A stretch of 64,000 bases of DNA from a virus: positions 31,647 to 95,646 of IMG/VR virus record IMGVR_UViG_3300036398_002892; one strand, given 5' to 3'. Below, piece after piece: positions 2,789 through 58,876 of the stretch. The stretch's first letter is position 1. The number at the start of each line of letters is the position of its first letter. Below the pieces are notes generated by a model. That model was given only the letters and a program-made list of their open reading frames with translations, had not been told where the DNA came from and searched no databases. Made by a program: the position numbers and the translations under genes.

Positions 2789-2823
2789 TATTTATAAGAA
2801 ATAATTACGACACTATATTTATA
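2789..2823 (+). promoter_or_regulatory. two TATTTATA elements (candidate late promoter)
   Basis: TATTTATA occurs at 2789-2796 and again at 2816-2823, directly after the nrdA terminator and before the gp25 start at 2827. The first copy is 30 nt from the ATG and the second 3 nt. The same octamer or TATTTATT heads several other structural units here. That it is a phage promoter is inferred from position and recurrence. Confidence 0.5.
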
Positions 2824-2826
2824 GAT

Positions 2827-3285
2827 ATGGCAGATGGAAAAACATATGGTATTAATTTCCCTTTTAGGGATTCTTATGATGGAAAGTATTTAGACCTTTC
2901 CACAGATAGTACTGAAGAAACAAGAACGGACTTAATACATTTATTATTAACTAGAAAAGGAAGTAGATATTTTTTACCCGATTTTGGTACAAGATTGTAT
3001 GAATTTATTTTTGAACCATTAGATGGTCCTACATTTTCAGATATTGATGCTGAAATTAGAGATGCTGTTGAAGAATACATACCGGGAATAACAATTAAAA
3101 ATATAAGTATTACTGCGGCATCAGATGGTGAGGAAGATAAAGGTACTTATGTTGACCAATATGATACACGTGTTTTTAGAGTACCGGGTATTGGAACTAA
3201 AGAACACACTGCGAAAGTAAAAATAGATTATCAAATAAATAATGACGTGTTTAACGCTAGTGATTTTGTAATCCTAAATATTTAA
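2827..3285 (+). CDS. 25: baseplate wedge protein, gp25-like
   Basis: This 152-residue protein has the gp25/IraD-like fold signature. The N-terminal half reads LLLTRKGSRYFLPDFGTRL, followed by YEFIFEPLDGPTFSDIDAEI, the family's typical 'G.r...p.fG..l...lfep......' pattern. In contractile tails gp25 is the small wedge subunit that contacts the sheath and gp6. The frame is open upstream to 2764, but the extra residues come from the terminator and leader, so I chose ATG 2827. It lies 5 nt before the gp6-like gene, an arrangement expected for interacting wedge proteins. Confidence 0.88.
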   Translation: MADGKTYGINFPFRDSYDGKYLDLSTDSTEETRTDLIHLLLTRKGSRYFLPDFGTRLYEFIFEPLDGPTFSDIDAEIRDAVEEYIPGITIKNISITAASDGEEDKGTYVDQYDTRVFRVPGIGTKEHTAKVKIDYQINNDVFNASDFVILNI

Positions 3286-3290
3286 AGAAT

Positions 3291-5129
3291 ATGGCAAATA
3301 AAAAAATATCGTATACTACGAGAGATTTTCAATCAATTAGAACTGAGTTAATAAACTTTACAAGAACTTATTATCCGGATTTAGTTGACAATTTTAATGA
3401 TGCAAGTGTGTTCTCTGTATTATTAGACCTAAACGCTGCGGTTACCGACAACCTTCAATTCAACATAGATAGAAGTATTCAAGAGACGGTATTACAGTAT
3501 GCTCAACAAAGGTCATCAGTATTTAACATTGCCAAAACTTATGGGTTAAAAGTTCCGGGTCAAAGACCGTCAGTAGCTTTAGTTGATTTTTCAATTACTG
3601 TACCGGCTTTTGGTGATAAAGAGGATTTAAGATATTGTGGTATTTTACGTAGAGGTTCTCAAGTAAGTGGTGCTGGTCAAGTATTTGAAACTGTTTATGA
3701 TATTGATTTTTCATCACCATCAAATGCGGATGGGTTTCCTAATAGATTAAAAATTCCAAATTTTGATTCAAACAATAAGTTATTAAATTATACTATTGTA
3801 AAACGTGAGACCATTGTTAACGGTATTACTAAAGTTTTCAAGAGAGTTATTACTGCTAATGACGTAAGACCATTTTTTGAAATATTTTTACCTGAAAAGA
3901 CCGTATTAGGTGTAACAAGTGTGTTATTGAAAGATGGTACTCAATATGCCAATGTACCTTCAAATCAAGAATTTTTAGGTGTTGATAATAGATGGTTTGA
4001 AGTTCAAGCTTTAGCTCAAGATAGAGTTTTTATTGAAGACCCAACAAAAGTTTCTGACAACCCCGGGATTAAAGTAGGTAGATATGTAAATACTGCCACT
4101 AAATTTATTACGGAATTTACACCTGAAGGGTTCTTTAAAATGACCTTTGGTGGAGGTAGTCAATCTGCTGACGAACAATTAAGAGAATTTGCTCGAGATG
4201 GTAAACCATTAAATTTATACAAATATTCTAATAACTTTGCGTTAGGTAGCACTTTAAAACCTAATTCAACCCTATTCGTTCAATATAGGATTGGTGGTGG
4301 TACAGGAAGTAATTTAGGTGTTGGAGTTATTACACAAATTGGAACAGTTTCATTCTTTGTAAATGGTCCGTCTGAATCTGTTAATACTACAGTTGTTAAT
4401 TCATTAAGATGTAACAACGTAACAGCGGCTATAGGTGGGGCAAATTATCCAACAACAGAAGAAGTTAGGAATTTAGTATCGTATAACTTTACGGCTCAAA
4501 ACAGAGCAGTTACTGTAAATGATTATGAATCAATTATTAGAACAATGCCATCACAATTTGGTGCACCGGCTAAAGTTGCAATAACTGAAGAAAACAATAA
4601 AATTAAAGTTCAAATGTTATCATATGATGAGACCGGTAGATTAACCGAGATAGTTTCAAACACATTAAAAAATAATGTGGCGAATTATCTATCAAATTAC
4701 CGTATGATTAATGATTATGTATCAATTGAAAGTGCAAATGTTATTGACTTAGCTATAAATGTTGATGTTGTGTTAGATAATTCACAAAATCAAGGTTCAA
4801 TTATTTCTCAAGTAATTAATATAATCACAGATTATTTTGACCCGACAAACCAAGAAATGGGTGAAAATGTTAATGTATCGGAATTAAGAAGATTAGTTCA
4901 AAGTGAAAATGGTATTATTTCCGTTTCTGATATGACATTTTTTAATAAAGTTGGTGGTCAATATTCTTCATCTCAAACATCTCAAAGATATATCGATTCG
5001 GAAACAAAACAAATTGAATTAGTTGATGATACAATTTTTGCCGAACCAAGACAAGTGTATCAAGTTAGATATCCAAACAAAGATATCAATGTGAGAGTTA
5101 AAAATATTAAAACGGTTAATTTCTCTTAG
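3291..5129 (+). CDS. 6: baseplate wedge protein, gp6/gpJ-like
   Basis: This 612-residue protein belongs to the baseplate J / T4 gp6 family, which forms the wedge ring that opens on sheath contraction. The start is typical: YTTRDFQSIRTELINFTRTY, then a DASVFSVLLDLNAAVTDNL segment, as in gp6-like proteins of cyanophages and jumbo phages. The middle has beta-rich 'GGGSQSADEQLREFARDGKP' and 'GGGTGSNLGVGVI' loops. Then comes the NFTAQNRAVTVNDYESIIR segment conserved in J proteins. Its place next to gp25 supports the assignment. No defect is visible. Confidence 0.88.
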   Translation: MANKKISYTTRDFQSIRTELINFTRTYYPDLVDNFNDASVFSVLLDLNAAVTDNLQFNIDRSIQETVLQYAQQRSSVFNIAKTYGLKVPGQRPSVALVDFSITVPAFGDKEDLRYCGILRRGSQVSGAGQVFETVYDIDFSSPSNADGFPNRLKIPNFDSNNKLLNYTIVKRETIVNGITKVFKRVITANDVRPFFEIFLPEKTVLGVTSVLLKDGTQYANVPSNQEFLGVDNRWFEVQALAQDRVFIEDPTKVSDNPGIKVGRYVNTATKFITEFTPEGFFKMTFGGGSQSADEQLREFARDGKPLNLYKYSNNFALGSTLKPNSTLFVQYRIGGGTGSNLGVGVITQIGTVSFFVNGPSESVNTTVVNSLRCNNVTAAIGGANYPTTEEVRNLVSYNFTAQNRAVTVNDYESIIRTMPSQFGAPAKVAITEENNKIKVQMLSYDETGRLTEIVSNTLKNNVANYLSNYRMINDYVSIESANVIDLAINVDVVLDNSQNQGSIISQVINIITDYFDPTNQEMGENVNVSELRRLVQSENGIISVSDMTFFNKVGGQYSSSQTSQRYIDSETKQIELVDDTIFAEPRQVYQVRYPNKDINVRVKNIKTVNFS

Positions 5130-5179
5130 CAATTTATTTTAAAATTTATTGAATTATCTTTTGAAAATAGTATATAAAC

Positions 5180-5187
5180 TATTTATT
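5180..5187 (+). promoter_or_regulatory. TATTTATT element upstream of giant baseplate gene
   Basis: TATTTATT ends 13 nt before the ATG at 5201, in a 71-nt gap (5130-5200) that otherwise holds only AT-rich sequence. The spacing matches other copies of this element at operon heads. A weak TATCTTTTG string at 5156-5164 has one T too many for the host-type consensus, and I did not call it. Confidence 0.45.
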
Positions 5188-5200
5188 AAAAAAGATTATT

Positions 5201-10561: not shown

Positions 10562-10562
10562 T

Positions 10563-24591: not shown

Positions 24592-24599
24592 TATAAATA
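24592..24599 (-). promoter_or_regulatory. TATTTATA element (minus strand)
   Basis: On the minus strand TATTTATA ends 4 nt before the ATG of the fibre gene that starts at 24587. Copies 3-4 nt from the start also occur at 2816 and 27274, while most others are 13-17 nt away. If this is a promoter, the transcript would be nearly leaderless, so a translational role is equally possible. Confidence 0.35.
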
Positions 24600-26226: not shown

Positions 26227-27207
26227 CTATAAATAATCCTTTATTTGTTTTTTCACCAAAGATTTCATAACTTCCACATATTTTTTTGTTGAACTTTGAG
26301 AACTTACATAATCAAAAAAGTTAATATCCTCTTTTAATTTATCTAATGGGTTAATATTAATAAAATCTCCTTTATAAAATTTATCTTGTTTTTGGTTACC
26401 GGTTACTCCTGCCATATGAAGAATTGGTTTATCTTCATATATTTTTATTGAGTCAGTTGCCCATGAAAATTCAAACTCGGGTGTAATTCTTGTCTCAATT
26501 CCGTGTAACCATAAGTTCCATAATAATGACCACATTTCTGCGGTCCAAAATTGAATTTCACCGGGACTTATTGGGAATCTTCTTTGATAATCTAACATTT
26601 GGTCATATAGTGGAACACAATCTGCATAAATTTTTTCCCATAATAACCAATCGGTGTTTTTAATTAGGTATTGACCACCACCTGAATTTTCTTGATTACA
26701 TTCGATACATTCGACTGAAACACCAATAACATCAGCCATTTCGTTAAGTAATTGACCTTTACCGGATGTAGGGTGAGCACTTTCATAACGATTACAACAA
26801 TCCATAATATAATTATATCCGATATAACCTATGGTATCGGATAAGTAAGTAATATCGTCATTAATTAAACTATCAAAATTTGGTAATTTTCTAAATATAA
26901 TATCAGAGTCGTGTAAGAAAAAACATTTACCATATTCAGGAAAATCTTTTAACCATTTTGAAATTAAAAAAGGTTTAACTGTTGGTATATAATGTTTTTG
27001 AGGTCTATCGTCAATATAATGATGTACGTTAACACCCGTATCTTTTAATTTTAAAGATTCTTCAGTTGGTTTACCATCTTCACTTATTATTCCAAGTAAT
27101 ACGTGTATTTGATTTGGGGGGACACCATGTTCAATAAAGTTATGTATATATACCATTATTTGCCAATGGAAATATGGTACATCAGGTTGAGCTGTAACAA
27201 AAATCAT
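26227..27207 (-). CDS. DxD-type glycosyltransferase-like protein
   Basis: A 326-residue protein that looks like a GT-A-fold glycosyltransferase. It starts with a Rossmann-like strand (MIFVTAQPDVPYFHWQIMVY). The metal/nucleotide-sugar motif is at 98-102 (FFLHDSDIIF, giving DSD). Later conserved-looking blocks are SGGGQYLIKN, IQFWTAEMWSLLWNLWLHGI and FEFSWATDSI. From memory these recall eukaryotic peptidyl arabinosyl/galactosyltransferases (HPAT/SGT type), a low-confidence comparison. The gene lies inside the fibre cluster among Thr/Pro-rich proteins, so one guess is glycosylation of virion proteins. Another is modification of the host surface. Confidence 0.6.
   Translation of the reverse strand: MIFVTAQPDVPYFHWQIMVYIHNFIEHGVPPNQIHVLLGIISEDGKPTEESLKLKDTGVNVHHYIDDRPQKHYIPTVKPFLISKWLKDFPEYGKCFFLHDSDIIFRKLPNFDSLINDDITYLSDTIGYIGYNYIMDCCNRYESAHPTSGKGQLLNEMADVIGVSVECIECNQENSGGGQYLIKNTDWLLWEKIYADCVPLYDQMLDYQRRFPISPGEIQFWTAEMWSLLWNLWLHGIETRITPEFEFSWATDSIKIYEDKPILHMAGVTGNQKQDKFYKGDFININPLDKLKEDINFFDYVSSQSSTKKYVEVMKSLVKKQIKDYL
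26228..26235 (-). promoter_or_regulatory. TATTTATA element (minus strand), extended form
   Basis: On the minus strand it reads TATTTATAGTATAA and ends 21 nt before the start at 26206. The same 14-mer precedes the giant fibre gene (motif 32648-32655). It overlaps the stop codon of the glycosyltransferase gene. Confidence 0.5.
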
Positions 27208-27273: not shown

Positions 27274-27281
27274 TATTTATA
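27274..27281 (+). promoter_or_regulatory. TATTTATA element before a small plus-strand gene
   Basis: A plus-strand TATTTATA, 4 nt before the ATG at 27286. It gives the small gene its own candidate start signal inside a minus-strand block. Confidence 0.35.
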
Positions 27282-27285: not shown

Positions 27286-27456
27286 ATGAAACTGATTAGA
27301 ACAATATCAAATTTGGTTACAGAATCTAAAAGAATTTACGAAGAGGCCTGTGAAAAAGGTGTCAACGAAAAAGAATTAGATAGATTAGAAAAAAACTACA
27401 ATGAATCTTTAAAACTTTTAAAGTTGTACGAAGGTTTAGGTAAAAAAACGGAATAA
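27286..27456 (+). CDS. small helical protein, unknown (56 aa)
   Basis: A 56-residue frame on the plus strand inside the minus-strand fibre cluster, reading MKLIRTISNLVTESKRIYEE and ending LKLYEGLGKKTE. The sequence is charged and strongly helical, with heptad-like Leu spacing (LDRLEKNYNESLKLLKLYEG), unlike the Thr/Pro-rich neighbours. Its stop is 2 nt from the stop of the giant fibre gene on the other strand. It has its own upstream TATTTATA. Function is unknown; a small regulator or chaperone would suit the size. Confidence 0.55.
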   Translation: MKLIRTISNLVTESKRIYEEACEKGVNEKELDRLEKNYNESLKLLKLYEGLGKKTE

Positions 27457-27458: not shown

Positions 27459-30400
27459 TTACGTTCCGTAAACTATTTCAATACCTTCAATGTGTATAGT
27501 CCATCTTAAAGTTTCTCCAACAACACCGGTTACCTGTATGTCTAAAGCGTCATTAGTATCGTCAGCGGTAATTGCAACGTCATAAGATGAGTTAGTTTCT
27601 ACATCAGTACCAATAGTTGATACAGTACCGATTAAAGAAGTTACTCCACCTACATTCTTAATCGCAACTTTTCTTATATAGTGAGCTCCTCCTGAACCAT
27701 CTGATTTAATACCACCAATATTTACTGTAACAAACATTGCAGTTCCTGCAATTACGGATATAAGTTGAGTTGTTCCATCTAAAAATATATTAACTGGTGT
27801 CGCATTTGTTGTTTTATTTCTACCAACTAAGTCAATTTGTTGTGATGTTCCTTTTATTAAACCATTAAAACTACCTGAAGAAAAAGACCTTTGACCGAAA
27901 CGAGGTGCACATGATAATGTTCCACCAAGAATTGATGAATAACAACCTGTGGTAGTGTTGCCACAACCTCCACCAATAAATGAATGGGTACCACATGAAA
28001 TATTTGATATACCACCAACAATTGCCGAACAACCACTAAACACGACATTTCCATTACCACCACCAACAAAAGAACCTGATGAACAAACCCCATTTACGTT
28101 TCCACCAACAATTACAGATAGGGTTGTACTTGATAATGCGGGTGTTGCAATACAGTTTGATTGACCACCACCAATAAAGTTAGAATCACCATGAGTTCTA
28201 TTTGACATACCGCTAACAATTGCTGAGTATCCATATACCCATTGGCATGTAATACAGTTTCCATTACCCCCACCTATAAATGAAAAACTTAAACGAGTTG
28301 TATTATTATTACCCCCACCAATAAATGAAGAGTTTCCTATAGTAATATTACAATAACCACCACCAATTGTTGAACATCCCCCACTTGAATTATTCTTTTG
28401 ACCACCACCAATTGTTGAAGTATCTCCTGATGAGATATTATTATATCCACCACTGATTGTTGAAGTGGCTCCTGATAAACGGTTTTTAGCTCCACCTCCA
28501 ATTGTTGATATTCTACCACATATCACATTACTATAACCACCACTAATTGTTGTGAAATAACATGATGATGATGTATTATCACAACCACCGGCAATTACCG
28601 AACAATTTCCACAAGCGCGATTTTTATATCCACCACCAATTGTTGAGGTAGCACCGGATGAGACATTACATCTACCACCAACAACAGTTGACCAACTACC
28701 TGAAGATAAATTACAAACCCCACCACCAATTGTTGAACACGCCCCTGATGCGATGTTTCTATAACCTCCACTTATTGTTGATAATTTACCCGCATTAAAT
28801 GTACAAGTTGGACTAGTCGTTACAGCTCCTGTTGTAAAGTTAAATGTTCCTCCACTAGTATTATTAAAAATACCACCACCGATAGTTGTACCTAAAGAAC
28901 AACATTCGTTATTTGGTGATTGTATTCTATTATTAAGACCACCACCAATTGTTGAAAATCTTGCATTTATTATGTTAATACAACCACCACCAATTGTTGA
29001 AGTATAACCTGAAGAATTATTATTACTACCACCACCAACAGTTCCAAGTATTCCGTAGACACGATTGTCAATACCACCCCCAATTGTTCCACCATCACCA
29101 AAAATTCTTTGTGATTGACCACCACTAATCGTTGCTCCTAAACAATACACAACATTTAATGCACCTCCTCCAATGGTTGAAGTATTTCCGCTGATTACAT
29201 TATCAATTCCACCCCCAATGAATGAATCACTACCCGATACACTATTAGACCTACCACCACCAATTATTGAACATAAACCTGATGCGGTATTCTTACAGCC
29301 ACCACCAACAAATGAACAATTTCCTGATGCGGTATTACAAAAACCACCTAAAATTGATGACCTTAAACCTGATGCGGTATTACATTGACCACCACTTACT
29401 GTTGAATAATTACATGATGATATATTTTTAAAACCACCACCAATTGTTGAACAAACCCCTATGGCTTGATTACAAATTCCTCCGGCAATTGTTGAAGTAG
29501 TTCCTGTTGCGATATTATTACATCCTCCCCCAATTGTTGAACTATTACCCACAACAAAATTTTTACAACCACCACCAATAAATGAATGGGTACTTGTTAT
29601 AGTATTTTGACTACCACCAACAATACTTGAAGTGGCTCCTGATACTGTATTACCAATACCTCCACCAATAAATCCTTGACAAAATCCACCTGAACTTGTT
29701 GTAAAATTTCGTAAAAATGGTTGTGAGGAAGAAAAAGGACTCACAGAGACAGTTGCACCACTAACATACAAGTTTGTATATGGTGAGGAATATGTTTGTC
29801 CTGTAATAACTACGTTTCTACTACATCCGAAGTTATCATATGTTAATAAAAGGTCGTTTACGCTAAATGATGATAATTGATTCCCGAACAATTGTAATGT
29901 ACAAGTATTTGCGGAATATGAACTTATTAGTTGAGAATTGCCTATAAAGTTTAATGTTCCACCTCCAATTATAGAATGTCTTGCGTAACTTACGTTAACG
30001 CTTCCACCCCCAATAACACCAAATTCTAACACAACTTTATTATTATTACCACTTACAATACCACCACCATAAGAACATTGAGCCAAACAGTTACCACATC
30101 CTCCTAAAATTGCTGCTCTAACTCCATATGTTTTATTAGCTGTTCCACCGGCTATAACACCATCTTCACCAACACCTGTTGTTCCTGATATTAAGTTACC
30201 TCTACCTCCACCAATAAATCCGAATTCGTTACATATTTTATTATTTGTTCCACCTGCGATTACTGAATTTGATGGGTTCATTGTATTACTAGTTATACAA
30301 TTGTAAAAACCACCACCTATTGTAGAATATGTTCCACAAACGAGATTAAGTCTACCACCGGCAATTGTTGAGTTATTACAACATGTTGTATTACAACAAC

Positions 30401-32647: not shown

Positions 32648-32655
32648 TATAAATA
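32648..32655 (-). promoter_or_regulatory. TATTTATA element (minus strand) before the giant fibre gene
   Basis: The minus strand reads CTATTTATAGTATAA, 17 nt before the ATG of the fibre gene that starts at 32630. The core TATTTATAGTATAA is identical to the element before the gene starting at 26206. Confidence 0.55.
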
Positions 32656-36333: not shown

Positions 36334-36341
36334 AATAAATA
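36334..36341 (-). promoter_or_regulatory. TATTTATT element (minus strand) heading the fibre block
   Basis: The minus strand reads TATTTATT, 16 nt before the ATG at 36317. It lies back to back with the plus-strand host-type promoter of the primase gene, so this short region would control two divergent units with different promoter classes. Confidence 0.5.
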
Positions 36342-36367: not shown

Positions 36368-36398
36368 TTGACAGTTATATTATTTTTTCTTATCTTTG
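36368..36398 (+). promoter_or_regulatory. Bacteroidota-type promoter (TTG-N20-TATCTTTG) before primase
   Basis: TTG at 36368-36370 and TATCTTTG at 36391-36398, separated by 20 nt, match the Bacteroidota primary sigma consensus (TTG near -33, TAnnTTTG near -7). The element ends 4 nt before the chosen primase ATG, so the transcript would be leaderless or nearly so. Confidence 0.7.
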
Positions 36399-41945: not shown

Positions 41946-44315
41946 ATGGATTTATTTAATCCCCCAATCGAATTTAATTACACAATAATGATAAAAGATT
42001 TAGATATCACAAGTTTTGATAATCCTTACCTACAGATTGTATGGGAGGACTATGCTGAAAACTTTACACAAGAAAAAATAAAAAGTGTTCGTCATTACTT
42101 CCAAAAGAAGTACAACACAACCAATGTCAACGTAATTACGAAGACAAAGGTTGCTCAAGACACCACACATACCGTAGACATATCCTTTAACATCTTGGAT
42201 GAGAACTATCAATTAGAATTAGTTCGTTCATTCTTGGAGTCAAAAGGGAATATGGAACACTACGATGATATCTACCAACTTAATAGTATTGTAGATAACA
42301 AATTATTACAAGACCAAACCGATGTCACTCCGTTTAAGAGATGGTACATTAAGAACATTGAGTTCTCAAACTTTTTATCCTATGGTGAGAATCAGAAGAT
42401 AGATTTTGAGAAGTGTGATGGGATTACGGTTGTAGAGTCAAACCCACCTAACTTTGGGGGTAAGACAGTTCTTACTGTGGATTTACTTATGTTCTTATTT
42501 TTTAATGAGACAACCAAGACATCAAAAGCTGAGGAGATATTCAACAGATTTACTGAAAGAAACAAAGTTGCCGTAAAAGGTGAGATAACAATCGATGGTG
42601 AGGAGTACATCATATTGAGAAATATTGAGAGAAAGTTATCAAAGAAAAATGAATGGAACGTTAAAACCGAGTTGGACTTTTATAAAAGATTGTCTGATGG
42701 TAGTTTACAGAACTTCACCGGAGAACAACGAAGAGAGACCGAGGCGTTTATTAAAACGTCAATCGGGACTAAAGAGGACTTCTTAATGACCATTTTAACA
42801 ACTGCCACCAACTTGGAAGAACTAATTGATGCCAAACCTACGGCGAGGGGTCAAGTTCTTTCAAGATTTATGGGGTTGGATTTCCTTAAACGAAAAGAAG
42901 AAGCTGCCAAAGAAATTTATAGTGATTTCTCAAAAGGAATGTTATCAAACATTTATAACTCGGAACAACTTAAAACTGACAACCAAACTAATCAAGAAAC
43001 CATTGATACTCTAACGGAAACTAATGTTACGTTGGACACTCAATTGGAAGACGTTAAAGGTAGAATTGTTAAGGGTCAGGAGTATCGTGATGGATTATTA
43101 AAATCCAAACACAACATTGATAAGGAATTGACAATGGTATCTCCGGACAAAGTTCAAGAGGAGATTAATGGATTGGATTTACAAAAGGGTAAAGCCATTT
43201 CCGATAGAGATGGGGTTAAGGTTATTGAACCATCTGAATTTTACCACGAGGACAAACACGATGAGGTAAAACAAGAGATTAAGGACTTGATTACCAAACA
43301 AGCGGAGAACAACGCAAAGATTAAAAGTATTGAAGAACTTAAGAGTTCGGTTGATGGTGGAATCAAATGTGAACATTGTGGTATTGAACTTATGAATGCA
43401 GCTATAACCAACGCAAAAATTGGTGAACTTGCCGGGTTTATCACGCACAAAGAGGAATTGGAGGGGTTAATGAGTGAATTAACCAGCAAAGAAGAAGGTT
43501 TTGTCAATCTTAAAAAAGAGTTTGATGAGTATGAAAAAAACAAACTTATCAAAGAGAAATATGAATTAAGTGTTGAACGTTTCCAATTGATGATTGACTC
43601 ATTGAAAACCAAATTGGAAAGATATTCTGAAGTTCAGGATAAGATTGTGGAAAACAATAAGACAGACGGATTATTGATTAAAGCGGGAATCAGAATTGAT
43701 GAACTTGAGGGTGAGAAAAAAACCATTGAAACTAGTATCTCAAACAATAAGTTCACCATTAAAACTCTAACCGATAAAATTAATTCTAACTTGGAAACAA
43801 TTAGAAAAATCGCAGAAGAGGCCGAAAGAGAAAGAATTTATAAAATCTATTTGGAAATCTTTGGTAAGAATGGGGTAACCAAACTTATAATGAAAACTAT
43901 GATGCCACTTATTAATAGTGAACTTCAAAGATTGTTGGAAGATAGTTGTCACTTCAGATTAGAGGTTAAGATTAATGATAAGAATGAAGTTGACTTCCTT
44001 ATGATTGATAATAACACTCAAGTTGAAAAACCAATGTCTTCCGGTTCAGGGTATGAAAGAACAATTGCCTCACTAGCGTTAAGAGCGGTATTAAGTAAAA
44101 TCTGTTCATTACCAAGAGCAAATGTTGTTGTGTTTGATGAGGTATTCGGAAAAATATCCAACGACAACTTGGAGATGGTATCGGAGTTCTTCACAAAAAT
44201 TAAAGAATACTTTGAAAAGATATTTGTAATCACACATAATCCACTAGTAACGAATTGGTCGGATAATGTGGTGAGGATTAGAAAAGAAGAAAATATTAGT
44301 TATGTTTCCCAATAA
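41946..44315 (+). CDS. 46: recombination ATPase, gp46/SbcC/Rad50-like
   Basis: A 789-residue SMC-like ATPase that works with the gp47-like nuclease in end resection. The N-terminal ~130 residues are extra before the usual start (KNIEFSNFLSYGENQKIDFE). Walker A is atypical (SNPPNFGGKTVLTV, ~164-177). Two coiled-coil arms flank a Rad50 zinc hook (KCEHCGIELM, ~474-483). The signature is SSGSGYERTIASLALR, as in T4 gp46, and Walker B is NVVVFDEVFGKIS (~724-736), followed by FVITHNPLVT. The extra N-terminal domain is not recognised. The stop codon lies in the loop of a terminator hairpin. Confidence 0.9.
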   Translation: MDLFNPPIEFNYTIMIKDLDITSFDNPYLQIVWEDYAENFTQEKIKSVRHYFQKKYNTTNVNVITKTKVAQDTTHTVDISFNILDENYQLELVRSFLESKGNMEHYDDIYQLNSIVDNKLLQDQTDVTPFKRWYIKNIEFSNFLSYGENQKIDFEKCDGITVVESNPPNFGGKTVLTVDLLMFLFFNETTKTSKAEEIFNRFTERNKVAVKGEITIDGEEYIILRNIERKLSKKNEWNVKTELDFYKRLSDGSLQNFTGEQRRETEAFIKTSIGTKEDFLMTILTTATNLEELIDAKPTARGQVLSRFMGLDFLKRKEEAAKEIYSDFSKGMLSNIYNSEQLKTDNQTNQETIDTLTETNVTLDTQLEDVKGRIVKGQEYRDGLLKSKHNIDKELTMVSPDKVQEEINGLDLQKGKAISDRDGVKVIEPSEFYHEDKHDEVKQEIKDLITKQAENNAKIKSIEELKSSVDGGIKCEHCGIELMNAAITNAKIGELAGFITHKEELEGLMSELTSKEEGFVNLKKEFDEYEKNKLIKEKYELSVERFQLMIDSLKTKLERYSEVQDKIVENNKTDGLLIKAGIRIDELEGEKKTIETSISNNKFTIKTLTDKINSNLETIRKIAEEAERERIYKIYLEIFGKNGVTKLIMKTMMPLINSELQRLLEDSCHFRLEVKINDKNEVDFLMIDNNTQVEKPMSSGSGYERTIASLALRAVLSKICSLPRANVVVFDEVFGKISNDNLEMVSEFFTKIKEYFEKIFVITHNPLVTNWSDNVVRIRKEENISYVSQ

Positions 44316-44339
44316 AAGTTTGGGGAACATAATTTTTTT
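44301..44339 (+). terminator. terminator overlapping the gp46 stop and the next promoter
   Basis: A 12-bp stem, TATGTTTCCCAA / TTGGGGAACATA (44301-44312 and 44320-44331) with one T-G pair, has a 7-nt loop containing the gp46 stop codon and is followed by seven T. The downstream arm includes the TTTG of the next promoter. Confidence 0.85.
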
Positions 44340-44349
44340 ATTATCTTTG
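44319..44349 (+). promoter_or_regulatory. Bacteroidota-type promoter (TTTG-N19-TATCTTTG)
   Basis: TTTG at 44319-44322 and TATCTTTG at 44342-44349 with 19 nt between, an excellent match to the host-type consensus. It drives the nuclease-methyltransferase gene, with a leader of about 35 nt. Confidence 0.8.
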
Positions 44350-44386
44350 TAACCTAATATGGAATTTAAAAACAAAACTATAGACT

Positions 44387-46843
44387 ATGACAAACACTGA
44401 TAAAAGATTATCATCAATTTTAGTTGAGAAAGACGTTGAAAATATTTATCGACAATATTTAACCAAAAAGTTTGGGGATATTATTTTTAACTCACCATTT
44501 AAATGCGATGGATATGGGGAATCCAAAAAACACAATATTAGACTTATTTGTGAATTCAAAGATATACTTGATTTAACCCTCAGAATAAATCAAATTAAAT
44601 CATTGTGTCAAGCATTATATTATATTAAAAAATTTGAAATTTCAGGTAAAATTTTACCTTCAGTTATTTTTATTGGTGACCGAAGTAAATGTTTTGCGAT
44701 TCACACTAATGAAATATTTAATTATTTAGGGATGGATTTTGATTGGTCTATTGCACCATCTAAATCTTATACTAATATTGAATTAGTTAATTTAATGATG
44801 GTGGATGAGAAAATTAATCCACACATATTTGGTATTAAAGATATTGCAAATTGTGTTGATAAGATTAAAGACCTTAATGATGGTGTTAAGAGATTAATAC
44901 CAATTACCCCACATAATGTTACCGAAGTATTTAAACACTTTGAAGATAATGTTATTGGTACTCACAAATTAGATACTAATCAATTGGCTAATTTATTTGT
45001 ACAGTTATTAGTAAATCCTGATGAAAATTATCTTCATCCAGTTGTTCGTAGAAAAACTGTTGTGACTAAATCATTTCGTGAAGTAAATCTTAAAAATAGA
45101 GAAGTTTTTGTATCATTTTTTTCACATTTTTCTCGTGAATATACCCCAAGTCAAAAAGAACATTTAACAGCTGTTGTTGACCGTTTAGTACAAGATATAA
45201 CTCGTCGTAAACAAGGTGAGTTTTTTACCCCGACTATTTGGGTAAATAAAGCTCACGAATATATTGAGTCAGTTTATGGGGAAGATTGGAAAGAAAAATA
45301 TGTGGTATGGGACCCAGCGTGGGGGACCGGTAATTTAACTCGTGATTATAGATTTAAAGAACTTTATGTGTCAACATTAAATTATAGTGATATTCAAACG
45401 GCAGAACAAATGGGTTTTAACCCGGAATCAATTAAGTTTCAGTCAGATTTTTTAAATGATGATTACAGTTATTTACCTAAAAAATTAAAAGACTCTATAG
45501 AAGGGGGTAAACCAATTTTTATTTTATTAAATCCGCCCTATGTTGCATCAGCTAATTTTGGGGAAAGTGATAAAAAAGGTGCGTCACAAACAGTTACAAG
45601 TATTAATATGGTTAAAGATGGGTTTGGTAAATCGTCTCAAAATTTATACGCTCAGTTCCTTTATCAAATTTATAAATTAAAGGAAAAAAATAATAATATT
45701 AATATTGGGATTTTTTCACCTTCATTATTTTTTACAGGTTCAAGTTTTAAAATGTTTAGAAAAAAATTTTTTAATGAGTTCAAATATGAAAAAGGGTTTT
45801 TATTTGATGCGTCTAATTTTGACGATGTTTCAAAAGATTGGGGGATAAATTTTGTTTTATTCAGTAGTGGTATTAATGATTCAAATATTTTTAATTTAGA
45901 TACAATTAAAAAAAATAAAAATGATTTTTCATCTGAATTTAATGGTGATGAATATTCATTAGAAGTTATTGGTGATAAGACTTTATATAATTGTGACTCA
46001 AATGTTGCGGCATCTGAGTGGGTTAGGTCTGAAATAAAAAATATTAAAACAGATTCTTCTTTACCACAATTTCAAAACGCAACTAAATTAAGAACGCAAG
46101 GAAAACTTAGTGGTGGATATATTGAAGACTCGTTAGGTTATTTTTATAATAATTCAAATAATATTGACAAGAACAGTCAGAATGTTGCTATGTGGTCGGC
46201 AGGATTTTATGCTGGTCACGGAGTATCGGTTATTAATGAAAATTTTTATAAGTGTGTTTCATTATTCGCAGCAAGAAAATTAATATCTAAAAATTGGGAA
46301 AATTCTAAAGATGAATATCTTTCACCAAATGAGAATTCGGACAATTATTTTCAATTCAAAATTGACTCTATAGTTCATTCTTTATTTCATATACATTCTT
46401 ATCAATCTAGTTTAAGACAAGTAGCACATAATGACCAATTATGGGATATTAAAAATGAATTTTTTTGGATGAGTAAAAACGAAATGACAGGTTTTGCGAA
46501 TCAAAATAATTACACTGAGTTATACAATGATGTGAGAACTGATTCGGACCGTTATGTACACACTTTATTGTTTGGGGAAGATGGTGTTTATGAACAACTT
46601 TCAAACGAGGCTAAGGAAGTTTTAGATGCTGCGACTAATTTAGTTAGACTATCATTCGGAATGAGAAGAAATTTTGCTGATAACACAAATTATCTTAATA
46701 GTTGGGATGCTGGTTATGCTCAACTAAAGTTACTTTGGAAAGAATATTTTCCTGAACAATTTAAAGACTTTAGGGTAAAATATAAATTACTTGAAGATAA
46801 AATGAGACCAATGGTTTATGAATTAGGATTTTTATTACCATAA
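44387..46843 (+). CDS. nuclease-DNA methyltransferase fusion (type IIG-like)
   Basis: An 818-residue protein. The N-terminal ~150 residues look like a PD-(D/E)XK nuclease: an Asp in FKCDGYGES, then LICEFK (Glu56, Lys58), then Gln/Tyr in QALYYIKKF. A gamma-type N6-adenine methyltransferase follows: RKQGEFFTPTIWVNKA (~280), AdoMet motif VVWDPAWGTGNLTRD (~305), catalytic LLNPPYVA (~382). The last ~300 residues, with GHGVSV and aromatic blocks, are probably the target-recognition part. This order is that of type IIG/IIL enzymes that cut and methylate in one chain. It has its own terminator-promoter unit and a partner gene 3 nt downstream. It may only methylate if the nuclease is inactive. Confidence 0.75.
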   Translation: MTNTDKRLSSILVEKDVENIYRQYLTKKFGDIIFNSPFKCDGYGESKKHNIRLICEFKDILDLTLRINQIKSLCQALYYIKKFEISGKILPSVIFIGDRSKCFAIHTNEIFNYLGMDFDWSIAPSKSYTNIELVNLMMVDEKINPHIFGIKDIANCVDKIKDLNDGVKRLIPITPHNVTEVFKHFEDNVIGTHKLDTNQLANLFVQLLVNPDENYLHPVVRRKTVVTKSFREVNLKNREVFVSFFSHFSREYTPSQKEHLTAVVDRLVQDITRRKQGEFFTPTIWVNKAHEYIESVYGEDWKEKYVVWDPAWGTGNLTRDYRFKELYVSTLNYSDIQTAEQMGFNPESIKFQSDFLNDDYSYLPKKLKDSIEGGKPIFILLNPPYVASANFGESDKKGASQTVTSINMVKDGFGKSSQNLYAQFLYQIYKLKEKNNNINIGIFSPSLFFTGSSFKMFRKKFFNEFKYEKGFLFDASNFDDVSKDWGINFVLFSSGINDSNIFNLDTIKKNKNDFSSEFNGDEYSLEVIGDKTLYNCDSNVAASEWVRSEIKNIKTDSSLPQFQNATKLRTQGKLSGGYIEDSLGYFYNNSNNIDKNSQNVAMWSAGFYAGHGVSVINENFYKCVSLFAARKLISKNWENSKDEYLSPNENSDNYFQFKIDSIVHSLFHIHSYQSSLRQVAHNDQLWDIKNEFFWMSKNEMTGFANQNNYTELYNDVRTDSDRYVHTLLFGEDGVYEQLSNEAKEVLDAATNLVRLSFGMRRNFADNTNYLNSWDAGYAQLKLLWKEYFPEQFKDFRVKYKLLEDKMRPMVYELGFLLP

Positions 46844-47989: not shown

Positions 47990-48790
47990 ATGAAAGAAAA
48001 AAATTCCGGTATTCCGATTAATCAAGAAGAGATTCAATTATATCTTAAAGATATTCGTAAGATTAAAGTGATGACCCCTGAAAGAGAACGTGAGTTATCT
48101 AAATTGATTACCTCGGGTACTCTAACAGAGAACGAGATTAAGGAGATTAATAAAGAATTATTAGAAGGTAATTTACGTTTTGTAATTACCGTGGCGAAAC
48201 AATATCAAAATCAAGGGTTGGATTTCCCTGATTTAATCGCTGAAGGTAATCTAGGATTGATGAAAGCCATCAACAATTTTGATTGGTCAAAGAATTTACG
48301 TTTCATTTCTTATGCGGTGTGGTGGGTTAAACAATCAATCCTTCAATCGTTGAATGACAATGCTCGTACAATCCGACTACCGGTTAATGTGGTTCAAGAT
48401 TTACATAGAGCCAAAAAAGAAATTGAATCTAATGGTGGTAAGTTAGATGATAAGTTTCAAAACCTACCTTCAATGATTGATTTAGATATGAATATCAATG
48501 AAGATGGTGATACCCTTGTTGACGTGATTAAAAATGAAGGTGCCGATATGCCTGATGAAGCATTTAATGGTAAAGATTTGTTGAAAGCAAAATTAATTTC
48601 ATTGTTAAATGTTTTAGATGAACGTGAAAAAGTTATTGTTGAGGACTATTTCGGATTAACCGGAACACAGAGAACCCTTGAAGATATTGGTAGTGATTTT
48701 AATCTAACCAAAGAAAGGGTTAGACAAATTAAAGAGAAAGCCTTACGAAAATTAAGGAACGACTGTTCGGTATTGTTTGATTATATGTAA
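47990..48790 (+). CDS. phage-encoded sigma-70 family factor
   Basis: A 266-residue sigma factor, close in plan to Bacteroidota primary sigma (~287 aa). Region 1.2 is QLYLKDIRKIKVMTPERERE. Region 2 spans ~62-135, with NLRFVITVAKQYQNQGLDFP, GNLGLMKAINNFDW and FISYAVWWVKQSILQSLNDN. Region 3 is shortened and acidic (NINEDGDTLVDVIKNEG). Region 4 has the HTH TLEDIGSDFNLTKERVRQIK (~225-244). T4 instead uses the very divergent gp55. It probably redirects host RNA polymerase to phage promoters, and the TATTTATW elements are the obvious candidate targets. A terminator follows. Confidence 0.93.
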   Translation: MKEKNSGIPINQEEIQLYLKDIRKIKVMTPERERELSKLITSGTLTENEIKEINKELLEGNLRFVITVAKQYQNQGLDFPDLIAEGNLGLMKAINNFDWSKNLRFISYAVWWVKQSILQSLNDNARTIRLPVNVVQDLHRAKKEIESNGGKLDDKFQNLPSMIDLDMNINEDGDTLVDVIKNEGADMPDEAFNGKDLLKAKLISLLNVLDEREKVIVEDYFGLTGTQRTLEDIGSDFNLTKERVRQIKEKALRKLRNDCSVLFDYM

Positions 48791-48799: not shown

Positions 48800-48831
48800 A
48801 ACCTTCTATTTATTATAATAGAAGGTTTTTT
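48800..48831 (+). terminator. terminator after the sigma gene
   Basis: A perfect 10-bp stem, AACCTTCTAT / ATAGAAGGTT (48800-48809 and 48818-48827), with an 8-nt AT loop and a T-run, 9 nt after the sigma stop. The gap to the next gene (48832-48860) is AT-rich with only a weak TACTTTTA string. Confidence 0.88.
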
Positions 48832-52755: not shown

Positions 52756-52763
52756 TATTTATA
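52756..52763 (+). promoter_or_regulatory. TATTTATA element before the EF-hand protein
   Basis: TATTTATA, 14 nt before the ATG at 52778, in a 37-nt gap with no other feature. Spacing is as in the other operon-head copies. Confidence 0.5.
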
Positions 52764-52777
52764 ATAAAAAAACAACA

Positions 52778-54298: not shown

Positions 54299-54326
54299 TT
54301 TACAAACAAATTAAATCAATTATATT

Positions 54327-54814: not shown

Positions 54815-54818
54815 AAAA

Positions 54819-54844: not shown

Positions 54845-54896
54845 AAAAAAAATTATTTTATAAGTATTAAAAATAAATTAATTAACACAATTTGAA

Positions 54897-55261: not shown

Positions 55262-55263
55262 TT

Positions 55264-55710
55264 ATGAGTTTGTATAAAGAATTTTCGGAATTATTACCGT
55301 ACATTCAATCAGTAAGAAAGATTGAAAAATATTTATCGTTTGATATTAGTTTTCCAACATCGTGGAAACTACCTAAAAAATATGTCCAAGAAGATAAAGT
55401 AATGGAGCAGGAGAATAAAATACCTGGTAACCGTACATTTTCTTTTGTTGCGGAAATTAACGAAAGTGATGTAGAACAAGTGACTGAAAATTTACAAAAC
55501 ATTATAAAATATAATCTTGAGAGAGAAGAAAAAGATAGATTATTTCAAAATAAAGTTGACGAGTTAAAATCTATTTTTGAAAAACAAAATTTAGAGAGTT
55601 TACAGAATTTAAAATTTGATTTAAAATCTAAAACATTAAGTAAATTAAAACTTGACGATAATGAAGAAGAACTTACAACAACTAGAGTGGTTGCAGAACG
55701 AGATAATTAA
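55264..55710 (+). CDS. hypothetical phage protein with a coiled coil (148 aa)
   Basis: A 148-residue protein. The N-terminus is compact (LPYIQSVRKIEKYLSFDISF, then TSWKLPKKYVQED), followed by NRTFSFVAEINESDVEQVTE and a long charged helix (KDRLFQNKVDELKSIFEKQN). I recall similar proteins in other T4-like phages of Bacteroidota, but no function. Its 3' end overlaps the next gene by 50 nt. Confidence 0.55.
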   Translation: MSLYKEFSELLPYIQSVRKIEKYLSFDISFPTSWKLPKKYVQEDKVMEQENKIPGNRTFSFVAEINESDVEQVTENLQNIIKYNLEREEKDRLFQNKVDELKSIFEKQNLESLQNLKFDLKSKTLSKLKLDDNEEELTTTRVVAERDN

Positions 55711-55846
55711 AGATAAAATTATTCTTGACCAAGAAAAGTCAAAATTAATCGATAATATTAAAAAATTAAAAAAGGAAGATATTCTTCCAAAACCTCCGGA
55801 AAAATTAACATTATGGCAGAGAATCAAAAAAGTATTGATGGGATAA
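55661..55846 (+). CDS. small helical overlapping gene (61 aa)
   Basis: Reads MKKNLQQLEWLQNEIIKDKI, with charged helices and a basic-proline C-terminus (KPPEKLTLWQRIKKVLMG). It is embedded between two genes with long overlaps (50 nt upstream, 34 nt downstream). I chose ATG 55661, the second in frame, since the first (55652) only adds three residues. Function unknown; the chain of overlaps suggests coupling. Confidence 0.5.
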   Translation: MKKNLQQLEWLQNEIIKDKIILDQEKSKLIDNIKKLKKEDILPKPPEKLTLWQRIKKVLMG

Positions 55847-56049
55847 TTGAAAAGTTAGCAATGATTGTTGACGCTGCAGATGAATTATTTCCCGATGGAA
55901 AAATGTTATTAGCGTTTGAATTAAAAGAAACTGAATTTAAAAAAGTTCAAGGAAACTTTAGAGAAATCGATAAATCTTTTAAACAGTTTAAAATAGAAAT
56001 GTCGGGTAATGATATTATGTTTTTGTTGGATGAGTCGTCGAATGTCTAA
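55813..56049 (+). CDS. hypothetical protein (78 aa), convergent overlap
   Basis: A 78-residue protein, mostly helical (SIDGIIEKLAMIVDAADELF then EMSGNDIMFLLDESSNV). It overlaps the gene before by 34 nt and, tail-to-tail, the minus-strand gene 56015-56656 by 35 nt. No family recognised. Confidence 0.55.
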   Translation: MAENQKSIDGIIEKLAMIVDAADELFPDGKMLLAFELKETEFKKVQGNFREIDKSFKQFKIEMSGNDIMFLLDESSNV

Positions 56050-56656
56050 TTAAATAATTTTTAGGAAATCCGTTTTCTTCTAATAAATTATATAGGTATT
56101 TTCTTTGTGAGGTACTATAATCTTTAACAAACATACAATCGTATCGTTTTTCATTTATGAAGTGTTCCGACACATTATCAATAAATCTTAAACTATCATC
56201 ATCATTTTTAAATGTTAATAAATTAAATTTATCATCATTTTGAATGATGATTTTATTATTTAATTTAGATATTAATTTAAGACCGTCTACTTTTAAATAA
56301 GTTTTTAATAATTCACCTAACCCTATTTTTTTATTTTTTGAATAATCTAAAAACAATTCTTCAATTTTAAATTTCATAATTTTTAAAATTGTAAAGTCAT
56401 CGTCATCTAAATTTACTTTAACTTTTCTCCCGTATTCGTCTTTCAAAAATATAGGTAAAAAAGTTCCCGATGTTTTTTCTAATAACGCTAATTCGTAACT
56501 ACACTCCACACCATTTTCATATTTCTTATCAAATATAACTGAATCACTTTCATCCATAAGTGAATCAAAATAATTATTTGCCCTTTTATGGGTTATAAAT
56601 TTCTTGATTATTTTCTTTTTTGTTTTATTTTTAAACAATACTATCTGATAGTTCAT
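56015..56656 (-). CDS. hypothetical protein (213 aa), minus strand
   Basis: A 213-residue charged protein. It starts NYQIVLFKNKTKKKIIKKFI and contains a SYELALLEKTSGTFLPIFLK strand region and a KLISKLNNKIIIQNDDKFNL segment. The C-terminus is LIRHSTTHPTKT. A TATTTATT element sits 14 nt upstream on the minus strand. It overlaps the convergent plus-strand gene by 35 nt. It has no known domain; a virion or injected protein is possible if the element marks late genes. Confidence 0.55.
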   Translation of the reverse strand: MNYQIVLFKNKTKKKIIKKFITHKRANNYFDSLMDESDSVIFDKKYENGVECSYELALLEKTSGTFLPIFLKDEYGRKVKVNLDDDDFTILKIMKFKIEELFLDYSKNKKIGLGELLKTYLKVDGLKLISKLNNKIIIQNDDKFNLLTFKNDDDSLRFIDNVSEHFINEKRYDCMFVKDYSTSQRKYLYNLLEENGFPKNYLIRHSTTHPTKT

Positions 56657-56670
56657 ATTGGGTGTGTATT

Positions 56671-56678
56671 AATAAATA
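56671..56678 (-). promoter_or_regulatory. TATTTATT element (minus strand)
   Basis: On the minus strand TATTTATT ends 14 nt before the ATG at 56656. The divergent gap to dnaJ (56657-56711) holds no host-type promoter match. Confidence 0.5.
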
Positions 56679-56711
56679 AGTTAGTTTTATATTAAATATA
56701 AGTAAATAAGT

Positions 56712-57629
56712 ATGGAGAATTTTTATCAAACACTAGGTGTAAATGAAAACGCAACTCAAGATGAGATTAAGAAAGCATATCGTAAATTAGCGGTAGAACA
56801 TCATCCGGACAAAGGTGGGAATGAAGATACTTTTAAAAAAATATCGCAAGCTTATGATACCGTAGGTGACGAAAGTAAAAGAAAACAATACGATAACCAA
56901 AGAAGTAACCCATTTTCTAATATGGGTGGAGGAGGGTTTAATCCTTTTGAAGATATGTTTCAAAATGGTTTTTACCAACAAAGAAGAAGAGCCGCTCCTG
57001 ATAAAATTATTGAAGTTACCGTTGGTACAATACAATCTTATAATGGTTCAGAAAAAAGTTTTACGTATAATAGAAAACATAAATGTGAACCGTGTAATGG
57101 TAATGGTGGTGAAAGAATAAACTGTAATTCGTGTGGAGGTGAAGGATTTATTACACAAAGAGTTGGTTCAGGATTATTTGTTCAACTTGTAAGACAAACT
57201 TGTAATTCGTGTGGTGGTAAAGGATTTTCGTATAAAACAGTTTGTGGTTCGTGTAATGGTGAGACAACAGTAACTAAACCTGAGACAATTACTATTAAAC
57301 TTCCTCACGGTATAGATGAAGGTCAATTTTTAAAACTACAGGGTAAAGGTGACTATGTGAATGGTGTTTATGGTAATTTAGTTATCAAAGTTAAAGTAAC
57401 GTCAGAAGATAATTTTGAAAAATCAGGTGATGATTTAATATATAATGCGTATTTTGATTTGAATACGATTAAGAATGAAAAGTTAGATATTAAACATCCA
57501 AAAGGTACGATGTCTATAAAATTACCTGAAGAGTTTGATACAGAAAAACCCCTTCGAGTAAAATCAAAAGGGTTTCATAATACGGGGGATTTATTTGTTA
57601 AGTTACACGTTAAATTTAAACGAACTTAA
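56712..57629 (+). CDS. dnaJ: DnaJ (Hsp40) co-chaperone
   Basis: A 305-residue type I DnaJ. The J domain ([27 protein letters not shown] with HPD at ~32-34) is followed by a Gly/Phe region ([14 protein letters not shown]), four CxxCxGxG-like zinc units ([31 protein letters not shown]) and the C-terminal beta domain ([20 protein letters not shown]). It works with DnaK, here presumably host DnaK, in folding or replication-complex remodelling. About 70 residues shorter than typical bacterial DnaJ, mostly after the second beta domain. The fourth zinc unit ends CNGE rather than CxGxG. Its stop overlaps the convergent minus gene by 4 nt. Confidence 0.92.
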
Positions 57630-57829
57630 AAAAAATTAATTAGTTCTTTTACTAATTTGATTGTACCGTAAATTGATGAGAATAAAACATATGTTGATAT
57701 AATCACCATAACCCAATGTGATTTAGATAATGACTTACGTTTACATGTTTTACATTCTTTTTTAGGTTGTTCAGGGGTGTCGTAGATAATATCCTTTTCT
57801 TCGATAATTTGTCCTTCAAGTTGTTCCAT
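57626..57829 (-). CDS. small membrane protein with CxxC (67 aa)
   Basis: A 67-residue protein with an acidic N-terminus ([20 protein letters not shown]), a basic CKTCKRK segment (~26-32) and one membrane helix ([20 protein letters not shown]). Preceded on the minus strand by TATTTATT at 14 nt. It overlaps the dnaJ stop by 4 nt. Unknown. Confidence 0.55.
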
Positions 57830-57843
57830 AGTAATATATTTTA

Positions 57844-57851
57844 AATAAATA
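57844..57851 (-). promoter_or_regulatory. TATTTATT element (minus strand)
   Basis: On the minus strand TATTTATT ends 14 nt before the ATG at 57829, as for 56671-56678. The divergent gap to dam (57830-57922) has no TAnnTTTG match, only a TATACTTA string. Confidence 0.45.
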
Positions 57852-57922
57852 TAATAAAAAATATTTGAAAGAGAAACTTGCTTTTTAACTTTTTATTTCT
57901 TATACTTAAAAAAAAGAAAATT

Positions 57923-58771
57923 ATGGCATTATCGTACATCGGAGGTAAATCAAAAATAGGTAAATGGATTGTTCCATTCATACCTCAAGATATTGAAACA
58001 TACATTGAACCATTTTCAGGTATGTTTTGGGTATTTTTTAATATGGACTTAACAAAGTACCCAAACTTAAAGAACGTTGTTTACAACGACTTTAATCCAC
58101 TAAACTACAATTTATTTCAATGTCTTCAGAATCCGGAAAGATTATTAGAAGAAGTGAATAATATTCCTTGTCAACAAAGGAATGAGTTTCCGACACCGGA
58201 GATATATAAAGAACAATTTATCAGGTTCCAAGCTGAAATATTTGAAACCAATTTCAGCGTACAAGCTTACGATTATGTGGTTGCTGCTAAATACGCTTAT
58301 GTATTGGCTCAGGTATTCTCAGGGTCTAAACCTGAAACAAGTTCATTTATTGATTTGAAAGGTAAGTATAAATCAAAGTATCTTACATTCAGAGATAAAT
58401 TATCTAAACCGGATTGGGTAGAACACTTTTTAAAAATTACTCACGTTGAGAATATGGACTTCCAAGACGTTATCCAAAAATATGATGGACCATCAACATA
58501 TGTTTATGCTGACCCCCCATATTGGAAGACAGAGAACTATTACAACAACCACGACTTTGATAGTAAAGACCATGAGAGATTGGCGGATTGTCTAAAAGGT
58601 ATTCAGGGTAAGTTTTCATTATCCTATTATGATTTCCCACAATTACATACTTGGTTTCCACCTCTTCAGTATGTTTGGGAGAAGAAAGAATTTGCTAAGG
58701 CGGCGGCTGCGAAGAAAGGTAAAACACAAAATATGGGGGAAGAACTCCTTATTATGAATTACCAAAAATAA
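57923..58771 (+). CDS. dam: Dam-like DNA adenine methyltransferase (D12 class)
   Basis: A 282-residue alpha-class N6-adenine methylase. The N-terminus (SYIGGKSKIGKWIVPFIP) and EPFSGMFWVFFN are the FxGxG-type AdoMet site, slightly altered. The catalytic motif is YADPPYWKTENYY (DPPY, ~196-199). Family length is 260-290. I chose ATG 57923 rather than the frame opening at 57878, since the family begins with this glycine-rich segment. It methylates adenines, probably GATC-like sites, to protect phage DNA or regulate packaging. The specificity cannot be told. The next gene has a host-type promoter in the following gap. Confidence 0.9.
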   Translation: MALSYIGGKSKIGKWIVPFIPQDIETYIEPFSGMFWVFFNMDLTKYPNLKNVVYNDFNPLNYNLFQCLQNPERLLEEVNNIPCQQRNEFPTPEIYKEQFIRFQAEIFETNFSVQAYDYVVAAKYAYVLAQVFSGSKPETSSFIDLKGKYKSKYLTFRDKLSKPDWVEHFLKITHVENMDFQDVIQKYDGPSTYVYADPPYWKTENYYNNHDFDSKDHERLADCLKGIQGKFSLSYYDFPQLHTWFPPLQYVWEKKEFAKAAAAKKGKTQNMGEELLIMNYQK

Positions 58772-58802
58772 TTTGTAATTTAAAAAATAAGTGTTATCTT
58801 TG
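58772..58802 (+). promoter_or_regulatory. Bacteroidota-type promoter (TTTG-N19-TATCTTTG)
   Basis: TTTG at 58772-58775 and TATCTTTG at 58795-58802 with a 19-nt spacer, directly after the dam stop. A TATTTATA element follows at 58855, so the LRR gene could be read by both promoter classes. Confidence 0.8.
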
Positions 58803-58822
58803 TCCTCGTTAAAGAAAAGTAA

Positions 58823-58876
58823 ATGGATTTAACGAATTATTTACAAAATTCAAATATTTATATTAAAAACGTTTAA
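58823..58876 (+). CDS. possible 17-residue leader peptide
   Basis: The frame encodes MDLTNYLQNSNIYIKNV, starts 20 nt after the TATCTTTG element and ends 1 nt before the LRR gene start. Translation of this leader could couple or attenuate the LRR gene. The TATTTATA element lies in its codons. It may be chance. Confidence 0.3.
   Translation: MDLTNYLQNSNIYIKNV
58855..58862 (+). promoter_or_regulatory. TATTTATA element before the LRR gene
   Basis: TATTTATA, 15 nt before the ATG at 58878. It is 52 nt downstream of the host-type promoter, giving a tandem arrangement of both classes. Confidence 0.5.

Follow-up and report, generated by a model that had tools for sequence, protein, structure and literature searches.

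Bacteriophage T4 transcribes its late genes from promoters that, according to PMC2988020, have an octamer in the −10 position and an AT-rich stretch downstream of it but no conserved sequence at −35. PMC7892883 describes how the T4 protein gp55 takes up the flipped A(−12) and A(−8), each in a deep pocket, and A(−9), for which the pocket is shallow. Here we describe a recurrent element, TATTTATW, in a 64,000-nucleotide (nt) stretch of viral DNA, called the window in what follows (GC content ~32%; bases 31647-95646 of the virus record IMGVR_UViG_3300036398_002892, which has 95,646 bases). An initial annotation had noticed the element at the heads of structural operons and proposed it as a phage-specific late promoter. 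Comparison of sequences makes it probable that a phage-specific promoter, read by a gp55-like phage sigma factor, has TATTTATW as its −10-type core, and position, conservation and a coupled initiator render a promoter of this kind much the best reading.

With the octamer taken as −13 to −6, TATTTATA differs from the T4 octamer TATAAATA only at −10 and −9, where the central AA has become TT, and it keeps both adenines that occupy the deep pockets in the T4 register as far as the available text gives it, A(−12) and A(−8). Cyanophages are related to T4 and possess a homologue of gene 55 (PMC2984593), and their late promoters, NATAAATA, retain the central AA, unlike the element described here. TATTTATW had been introduced as the reverse complement of the T4 late element, which is true to the letter because TATnnATA is a palindromic frame; the relation is described more simply as a substitution of two letters with the orientation unchanged, and the idea of an inverted T4 promoter was dropped. 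By its central letters the element thus lies outside the T4 octamer, while it shares with the T4 late promoter a −10 place (relative to a predicted start) without a conserved −35, an AT-rich stretch downstream, a position ahead of structural genes and, probably, a gp55-homologous sigma factor. We regard it as a likely changed T4-type late promoter, with an octamer variant that appears to be new, in large phages that probably infect Bacteroidota; no report of a TATTTATW element was found in searches of an open-access library, subscription journals lying outside the scope of the survey.

The window encodes T4-type virion genes, among them a Baseplate_J/gp6-like protein, as well as SbcC, primase and NrdA. 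The records closest to it also come from IMG/VR: scanning with the baseplate protein yielded at least 597 confirmed stretches, of which the best 80 were kept, and the distant named relatives of this protein are the huge phage LR756508 (28%), Flavobacterium phage immuto (26%) and Microcystis phage Mel-JY01 (25%). We compared the window's record (G000) with the family records G001-G006; G000 and G003 have no homologues of terminase, portal and capsid protein and for this reason look like fragments. The host is probably a member of the Bacteroidota, because promoters of the form TTTG-N19-TATCTTTG are present. The phages PTm1 and phi38:1 served as motif controls in place of host chromosomes.

Enrichment upstream of starts was measured against 300 dinucleotide shuffles per upstream region, with the antisense strand as a second control; a reversed-pattern control was dropped as worthless, because the reverse of this motif overlaps the motif. 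A copy lies within 39 nt upstream of 10 of the 60 window genes, where 1.44 are expected (shuffle maximum 4), and the enrichment proposed by the initial annotation is equally found in three long relatives, G002 (84/422 genes, 12.1 expected), G004 (72/348, 9.8 expected) and G003 (52/265, 7.6 expected). The antisense counts for the same regions are 4 in the window, 24 in G002, 21 in G004 and 15 in G003. The T4 octamer TATAAATA itself has sense/antisense counts of 22/61, 20/49 and 11/38 genes in G002, G004 and G003, and a T4 control stretch of 42 chosen coding sequences (CDS) gave 10 sense TATAAATA and 5 sense TATTTATA. The bias extends to immuto (33 genes sense vs 13 antisense) and to the noncoding upstream stretches of Mel-JY01 (12 sense vs 2 reverse), and PTm1, a Flavobacteriia phage of similar GC content, shows the reverse bias, with 7 sense vs 21 antisense among 312 genes. 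The Mel-JY01 copies stand at mixed distances from the start, 11 of 21 at 31-43 nt and often with GGAG-like sequences between; such gaps are as expected for the longer leaders of a host that uses Shine-Dalgarno (SD) sequences.

Most of the copies upstream of window genes recur before the orthologues of those genes, conservation being counted over distinct orthologous upstream regions per gene (orthologue starts of gene 44387 were not recovered). The baseplate gene at ATG 2827 has a twin pair of TATTTATA on the plus strand: the distal copy (2789..2796) lies 30 nt before the ATG, with a twin at gap 29-30 in 24/39 orthologues, and the proximal one (2816..2823), of the putative leaderless class discussed below, lies 3 nt before it, with TATTTATW at gap 3-4 in 35/39 orthologues and TATTTAT plus any base in 38/39. 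Upstream of ATG 5201 (a 1786-residue gene of the structural module), TATTTATT at 5180..5187 (+) stands at 13 nt; TATTTATW is present in 14/30 orthologues, and in 28/30 if the last base is left free. Two further TATTTATA copies fall into the putative leaderless class, 24592..24599 (−), 4 nt before ATG 24587 of an 829-residue gene (W in 4/5 orthologues, the fifth having TATTTATC), and 27274..27281 (+), 4 nt before ATG 27286 of a 56-residue open reading frame (ORF; gap 3-4 in 3/3). At longer distances are TATTTATAGTATAA at 26228..26235 (−), 21 nt before ATG 26206 (1/1 orthologue), and at 32648..32655 (−), 17 nt before ATG 32630 of a 1723-residue gene (3/3); TATTTATT at 36334..36341 (−), 16 nt before ATG 36317 (W in 4/5, the fifth having TATTTATG); and TATTTATA at 52756..52763 (+), 14 nt before ATG 52778 (2/2), and at 58855..58862 (+), 15 nt before ATG 58878 (4/4). 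These copies and distances had all been reported initially, the three at 3-4 nt included, and each was recovered exactly, as were the two exact occurrences of the longer shared TATTTATAGTATAA in the 95.6-kb record. The accompanying observation that the element is missing before genes within operons was borne out in the orthologues of seven such genes, none of which carries it (3291, 0/38; 10563, 0/25; 13218, 0/24; 15437, 0/9; 18454, 0/4; 35174, 0/5; 36100, 0/5).

The distance from element to start codon falls into two classes. Over 886 non-redundant genes from eight records, sense copies number 30, 10 and 5 at gaps of 3, 4 and 5 nt (45 in total), 0, 1, 0, 2 and 1 at gaps of 6-10 nt (4 in total), and 7, 22, 17, 13, 14 and 10 at gaps of 12-17 nt (83 in total), with antisense counts flat across gaps. 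In the window alone, 6 genes have a copy at 12-17 nt where shuffles give 0.18, so the cluster at 13-17 nt first noted there is not a product of chance, and 3 genes have one at 3-5 nt where 0.13 are expected. Of the 88 copies at gaps of 12-19 nt, 68 have an AAA that starts at the fourth nt past the element, whatever the distance to the ATG; it begins one place earlier in 38/88 and two places earlier in 9/88, and when the same regions are aligned on the ATG (−3 to −12) the best column reaches only 43/88. Among intragenic copies AAA starts at the fourth nt in 12/213. In the 3-nt class, the ATG occupies the place held by AAA in the longer-gap class.

Taken together, these alignments indicate that RNA most likely starts at the fourth nt after the element in both classes. 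A start had been anticipated 5-10 nt downstream of the element; the predicted distance is slightly shorter. With RNA beginning four nt past the element, messages from copies at 3-5 nt would be leaderless, and it is strongly suggested that these copies form a leaderless class of their own. The predicted start is also about two nt nearer than that of T4, and, unlike in T4, about one-third of the close copies (45/128) would give leaderless messages, in a host class that, again unlike T4's, is without SD sequences. Positions 14-16 upstream of the element are nearly free of G and C, which recalls the −28 AT-rich motif of Flavobacterium johnsoniae as the available text of PMC6847099 presents it.

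The same data bear on the alternative already raised in the initial annotation, that TATTTATW is a translation-initiation element, an A/T leader signal aiding ribosomes in SD-less Bacteroidota. Such a role would suit the nearness of the element to the ATG and the use of leader bases instead of SD sequences that PMC6847099, in its available part, ascribes to Bacteroidota. Two distance classes with a hole between them, however, speak against it, as does an AAA tied to the element rather than to the ATG; the seven within-operon genes, which also need translation, are without the element, and in PTm1 it is absent or reversed. We consider this alternative very improbable.

A second promoter type is present in the same phages. 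The host −7 element TATCTTTG is also enriched there, with a consensus TTTG 19 nt upstream, and TTG occurs at −25..−17 in 26/41 TATCTTTG sites vs 26/167 TATTTATW sites. TATTTATW could in principle be a weak variant of the host sigma-A promoter, which the available text of PMC6847099 gives as TTTG at −33 and TAHHTTTG at −7: the predicted start distance is nearly that of the host −7 element (4-5 nt), and AT-rich stretches lie upstream at similar places in both. The −7 letters nevertheless differ, the terminal TTTG, nearly invariant in the host element according to the same text, is missing from TATTTATW, and so, mostly, is the TTG of the −33 element. By both sequences TATTTATW falls outside the sigma-A class, and true host-type elements exist separately in these phages, heading other units, which leaves this variant hardly credible.

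In the window, TATCTTTG is found on the plus strand at 36391..36398, 4 nt before ATG 36403 of the primase gene and with no exact TTTG at the −33 place; at 44342..44349, with TTTG 19 nt upstream, ahead of a gene run, presumably a single unit, that ends with a gene for an RpoD-like sigma factor; at 58795..58802, again with TTTG 19 nt upstream, as a second, host-type promoter of gene 58878; and at 60595..60602, ahead of gene 60612. Gene 58878 is thereby preceded by a host-type promoter as well as by TATTTATA (58795-58862), possibly an early-plus-late pair. Sites of TATCTTTG in G000, G002, G003 and G004 show a leaderless peak of their own at gap 4 (12/50), and on this account leaderless mRNAs would extend beyond the TATTTATW class. 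In immuto, a second repeated element, TATATTTAGGTATCAATAATTAAAA, precedes 18/228 CDS, mostly small genes, and 0/52 in the structural modules; it is likely to be a separate early promoter of that phage.

The genes headed by the two promoter types differ. In G000, G002, G003 and G004, TATTTATN stands either no more than 60 nt upstream of the virion genes, recognised as homologues of those of immuto, or at the head of their unit, several of the copies lying 28-44 nt away; the genes comprise portal, protease, capsid unit, terminase unit, sheath, tube, hub and baseplate, with portal, capsid and terminase found only in G002 and G004. The primase gene has TATCTTTG in 3/4 of these records, none being found in G003, and the metallophosphoesterase gene or its unit has it in G002 and G004; neither promoter kind was found for ThyA, PhoH or the gp55-like gene. 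In immuto, TATTTATW lies within 45 nt of 9/20 virion or packaging CDS, assigned by CDS name, vs 24/208 others (Fisher p = 5e-4), and of 17/52 vs 16/176 when modules bounded by us are compared (p = 8e-5). By position, then, the element marks virion genes as T4-type late promoters do, and replication units also carry it; the class favours late structural genes without being confined to them.

Several observations weigh against TATTTATW as a phage-specific late promoter. The units of SSB/RecA and DnaB/Nrd are headed by TATTTATN in 4/4 records, and because of them the term 'late', as first proposed, is incomplete, the promoter part of the proposal being upheld. The window holds 39 copies of TATTTATW, of which 12 are sense and within 30 nt upstream of a start and the others lie elsewhere, mostly inside genes and on either strand. 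Among the upstream copies, TATTTATT at 56671..56678 (−), 14 nt before ATG 56656, recurs in only 2/4 orthologues, one of them at gap 0, and the doubtful TATTTATT at 57844..57851 (−), 14 nt before ATG 57829, in 0/3; a one-base variant, CATTTATA, 25 nt before gene 27207 recurs in 0/1 (all three distances agree with those first given). Gene 14520 has no copy in the window, yet the element is present in 3/20 relatives. Over all genes of Mel-JY01 the sense bias is weak, 18 vs 11, and the first 200 kb of LR756508 show no enrichment despite a gp55-like protein in that phage.

The candidate reader, a gp55-like protein of 249 residues, is encoded in G002 (28630-29379) and G004 (43791-44540), has 217 IMG/VR relatives (best 80 loci kept, G002 itself included) and also occurs in immuto, Mel-JY01 and LR756508. 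The profile phrog_234 matches it in G004 (E 3.4e-5), G002 (0.005) and immuto (0.008), as well as 17/21 aligned members at E <= 1 (best 4.5e-4), and PF04542 gave weak matches in the search of the G002 and G004 proteins; another late-sigma family, phrog_12791, has no match in 8 records. The best PDB profile match of the family is T4 gp55 itself (7d7c_F, E 0.013), and the same chain is the best row of VIA-align (Z 10.5, rmsd 4.0, 116 aligned residues), where for helical models a Z under about 13 may reflect a common arrangement only. In a Foldseek search against the PDB nothing fell under E 0.001, and the 50 best rows, dominated by sigma factors, contained no gp55 chain; BFVD gave one unnamed match under E 0.001. 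Each score is modest, but they agree with one another, which suggests that the protein belongs to the gp55 family. In the profile alignment, T4 Tyr97, which stacks on A(−12), corresponds to Tyr109 in 21/21 members, and T4 F86 to F98 in 19/21, the others having Y. The T4 late promoter is activated by the clamp gp45 acting through gp33; here, a gp45-type clamp over the PF02916 cut-off was found in none of 11 records, several of them fragments; LR756508 has a weak match (E 0.011).

This assignment is opposed by findings of its own. The G002 protein matched no PHROG in a member-by-member search, and phrog_234 also matches 7/14 control bacterial and archaeal genomes at E <= 1. The structure model is moderate (pLDDT 72, pTM 0.41), and VIA rows within 1 Z of the best, sigma-E region 2 among them, are tied with it. 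T4 Thr99, which hydrogen-bonds A(−8), is replaced by G, S and Q in 18, 2 and 1 members. The gene was not found in the window's 95.6-kb record or in G001, G003, G005 and G006, none of which is longer than 214.8 kb and all of which are probably incomplete, and the protein has no match at E <= 1 in PTm1, G003 and G006. Finally, the immuto protein resembles its counterparts in Mel-JY01 and LR756508 more than that of the window's family, and protein and motif therefore track imperfectly.

The window offers a second candidate, an RpoD-like sigma factor of 266 residues (47990..48790, +) with sigma regions 1.2, 2 and 4 (Pfam PF00140, PF04542 and PF04545). Downstream of its gene, a terminator-like hairpin (48801-48831, ACCTTCTAT...ATAGAAGGTTTTTT) contains a TATTTATT at 48807 that is not a promoter copy. 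If this factor directed RNA polymerase to TATTTATW, the promoter would be the same and its reader another. The factor is present in 7/7 family records searched (G000-G006), even where no gp55-like gene was found, and its gene run stands behind a host-type promoter, as for an early regulator. Yet immuto has the element on its virion genes and no relative of the factor: tblastn gave no match at E <= 1 there and at best E 0.49 in Mel-JY01, no credible relative was found across immuto, Mel-JY01, PTm1 and the first 200 kb of LR756508 (best E 0.31), and the positive controls G002 and MT835471 scored 1e-167 and 2.5e-49. Nor has immuto a sigma-70 region 2 match at E <= 0.1, and the factor is an unlikely reader in that phage. 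A relative of the factor at 36% occurs in a gut phage record that has 0 copies in 95 upstream regions, though the GC content of this record is 0.445, and an ordinary RpoD-like sigma with region 4 would predict a −33/−35 element. A scan of genome contigs with the factor gave 53 loci, mostly Bacillota and none titled Bacteroidota. We therefore judge the RpoD-like factor unlikely as the reader, and a diverged gp55-related sigma the probable one.

The ORF at 27286-27456 (+), conserved and absent from the initial annotation, begins with MKLIRTISNLVTESKR, which resembles the N terminus of gene 58878, MRLTNTLSTLITEQSR, and a few other proteins of G002 and G003 begin somewhat alike. On the model of T4, this shared N terminus may be a leader that targets the protein to the capsid or is removed by a protease.

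We propose the following mechanism for how transcription from the phage-specific promoter might take place. Host RNA polymerase carrying the phage-encoded, diverged gp55-homologous sigma would melt TATTTATW and begin RNA at the fourth nt past it. Where the ATG lies at this start place the transcript would be leaderless, and where it lies farther off the message would begin with some 9-14 nt of A-rich leader. TATTTATW would drive the head, tail and baseplate units together with some replication units, and the host-type TATCTTTG, often with TTTG 19 nt upstream, would drive other units, including those of primase and the RpoD-like sigma. A more far-reaching version, which we regard as doubtful, is a two-sigma phage cascade in which a clamp-free late sigma of the T4 lineage reads a re-lettered octamer and a large gene set is made leaderless by placing promoters 3-5 nt from the start codon. 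If that were true, promoter choice would also set the mode of translation during take-over.

The T4 late-transcription scheme is described for phages that infect Proteobacteria and cyanobacteria; a promoter of this kind would carry it over to large phages whose hosts are probably Bacteroidota, and it would offer a naturally occurring test of element recognition by gp55. Given the at least 597 relatives of the baseplate protein, it would also allow operons to be mapped directly in hundreds of uncultured contigs. The cultured relative immuto makes these claims testable, and the leaderless class, sharply delimited as it is, would lend itself to clean studies of leaderless translation in a phylum that lacks SD sequences.

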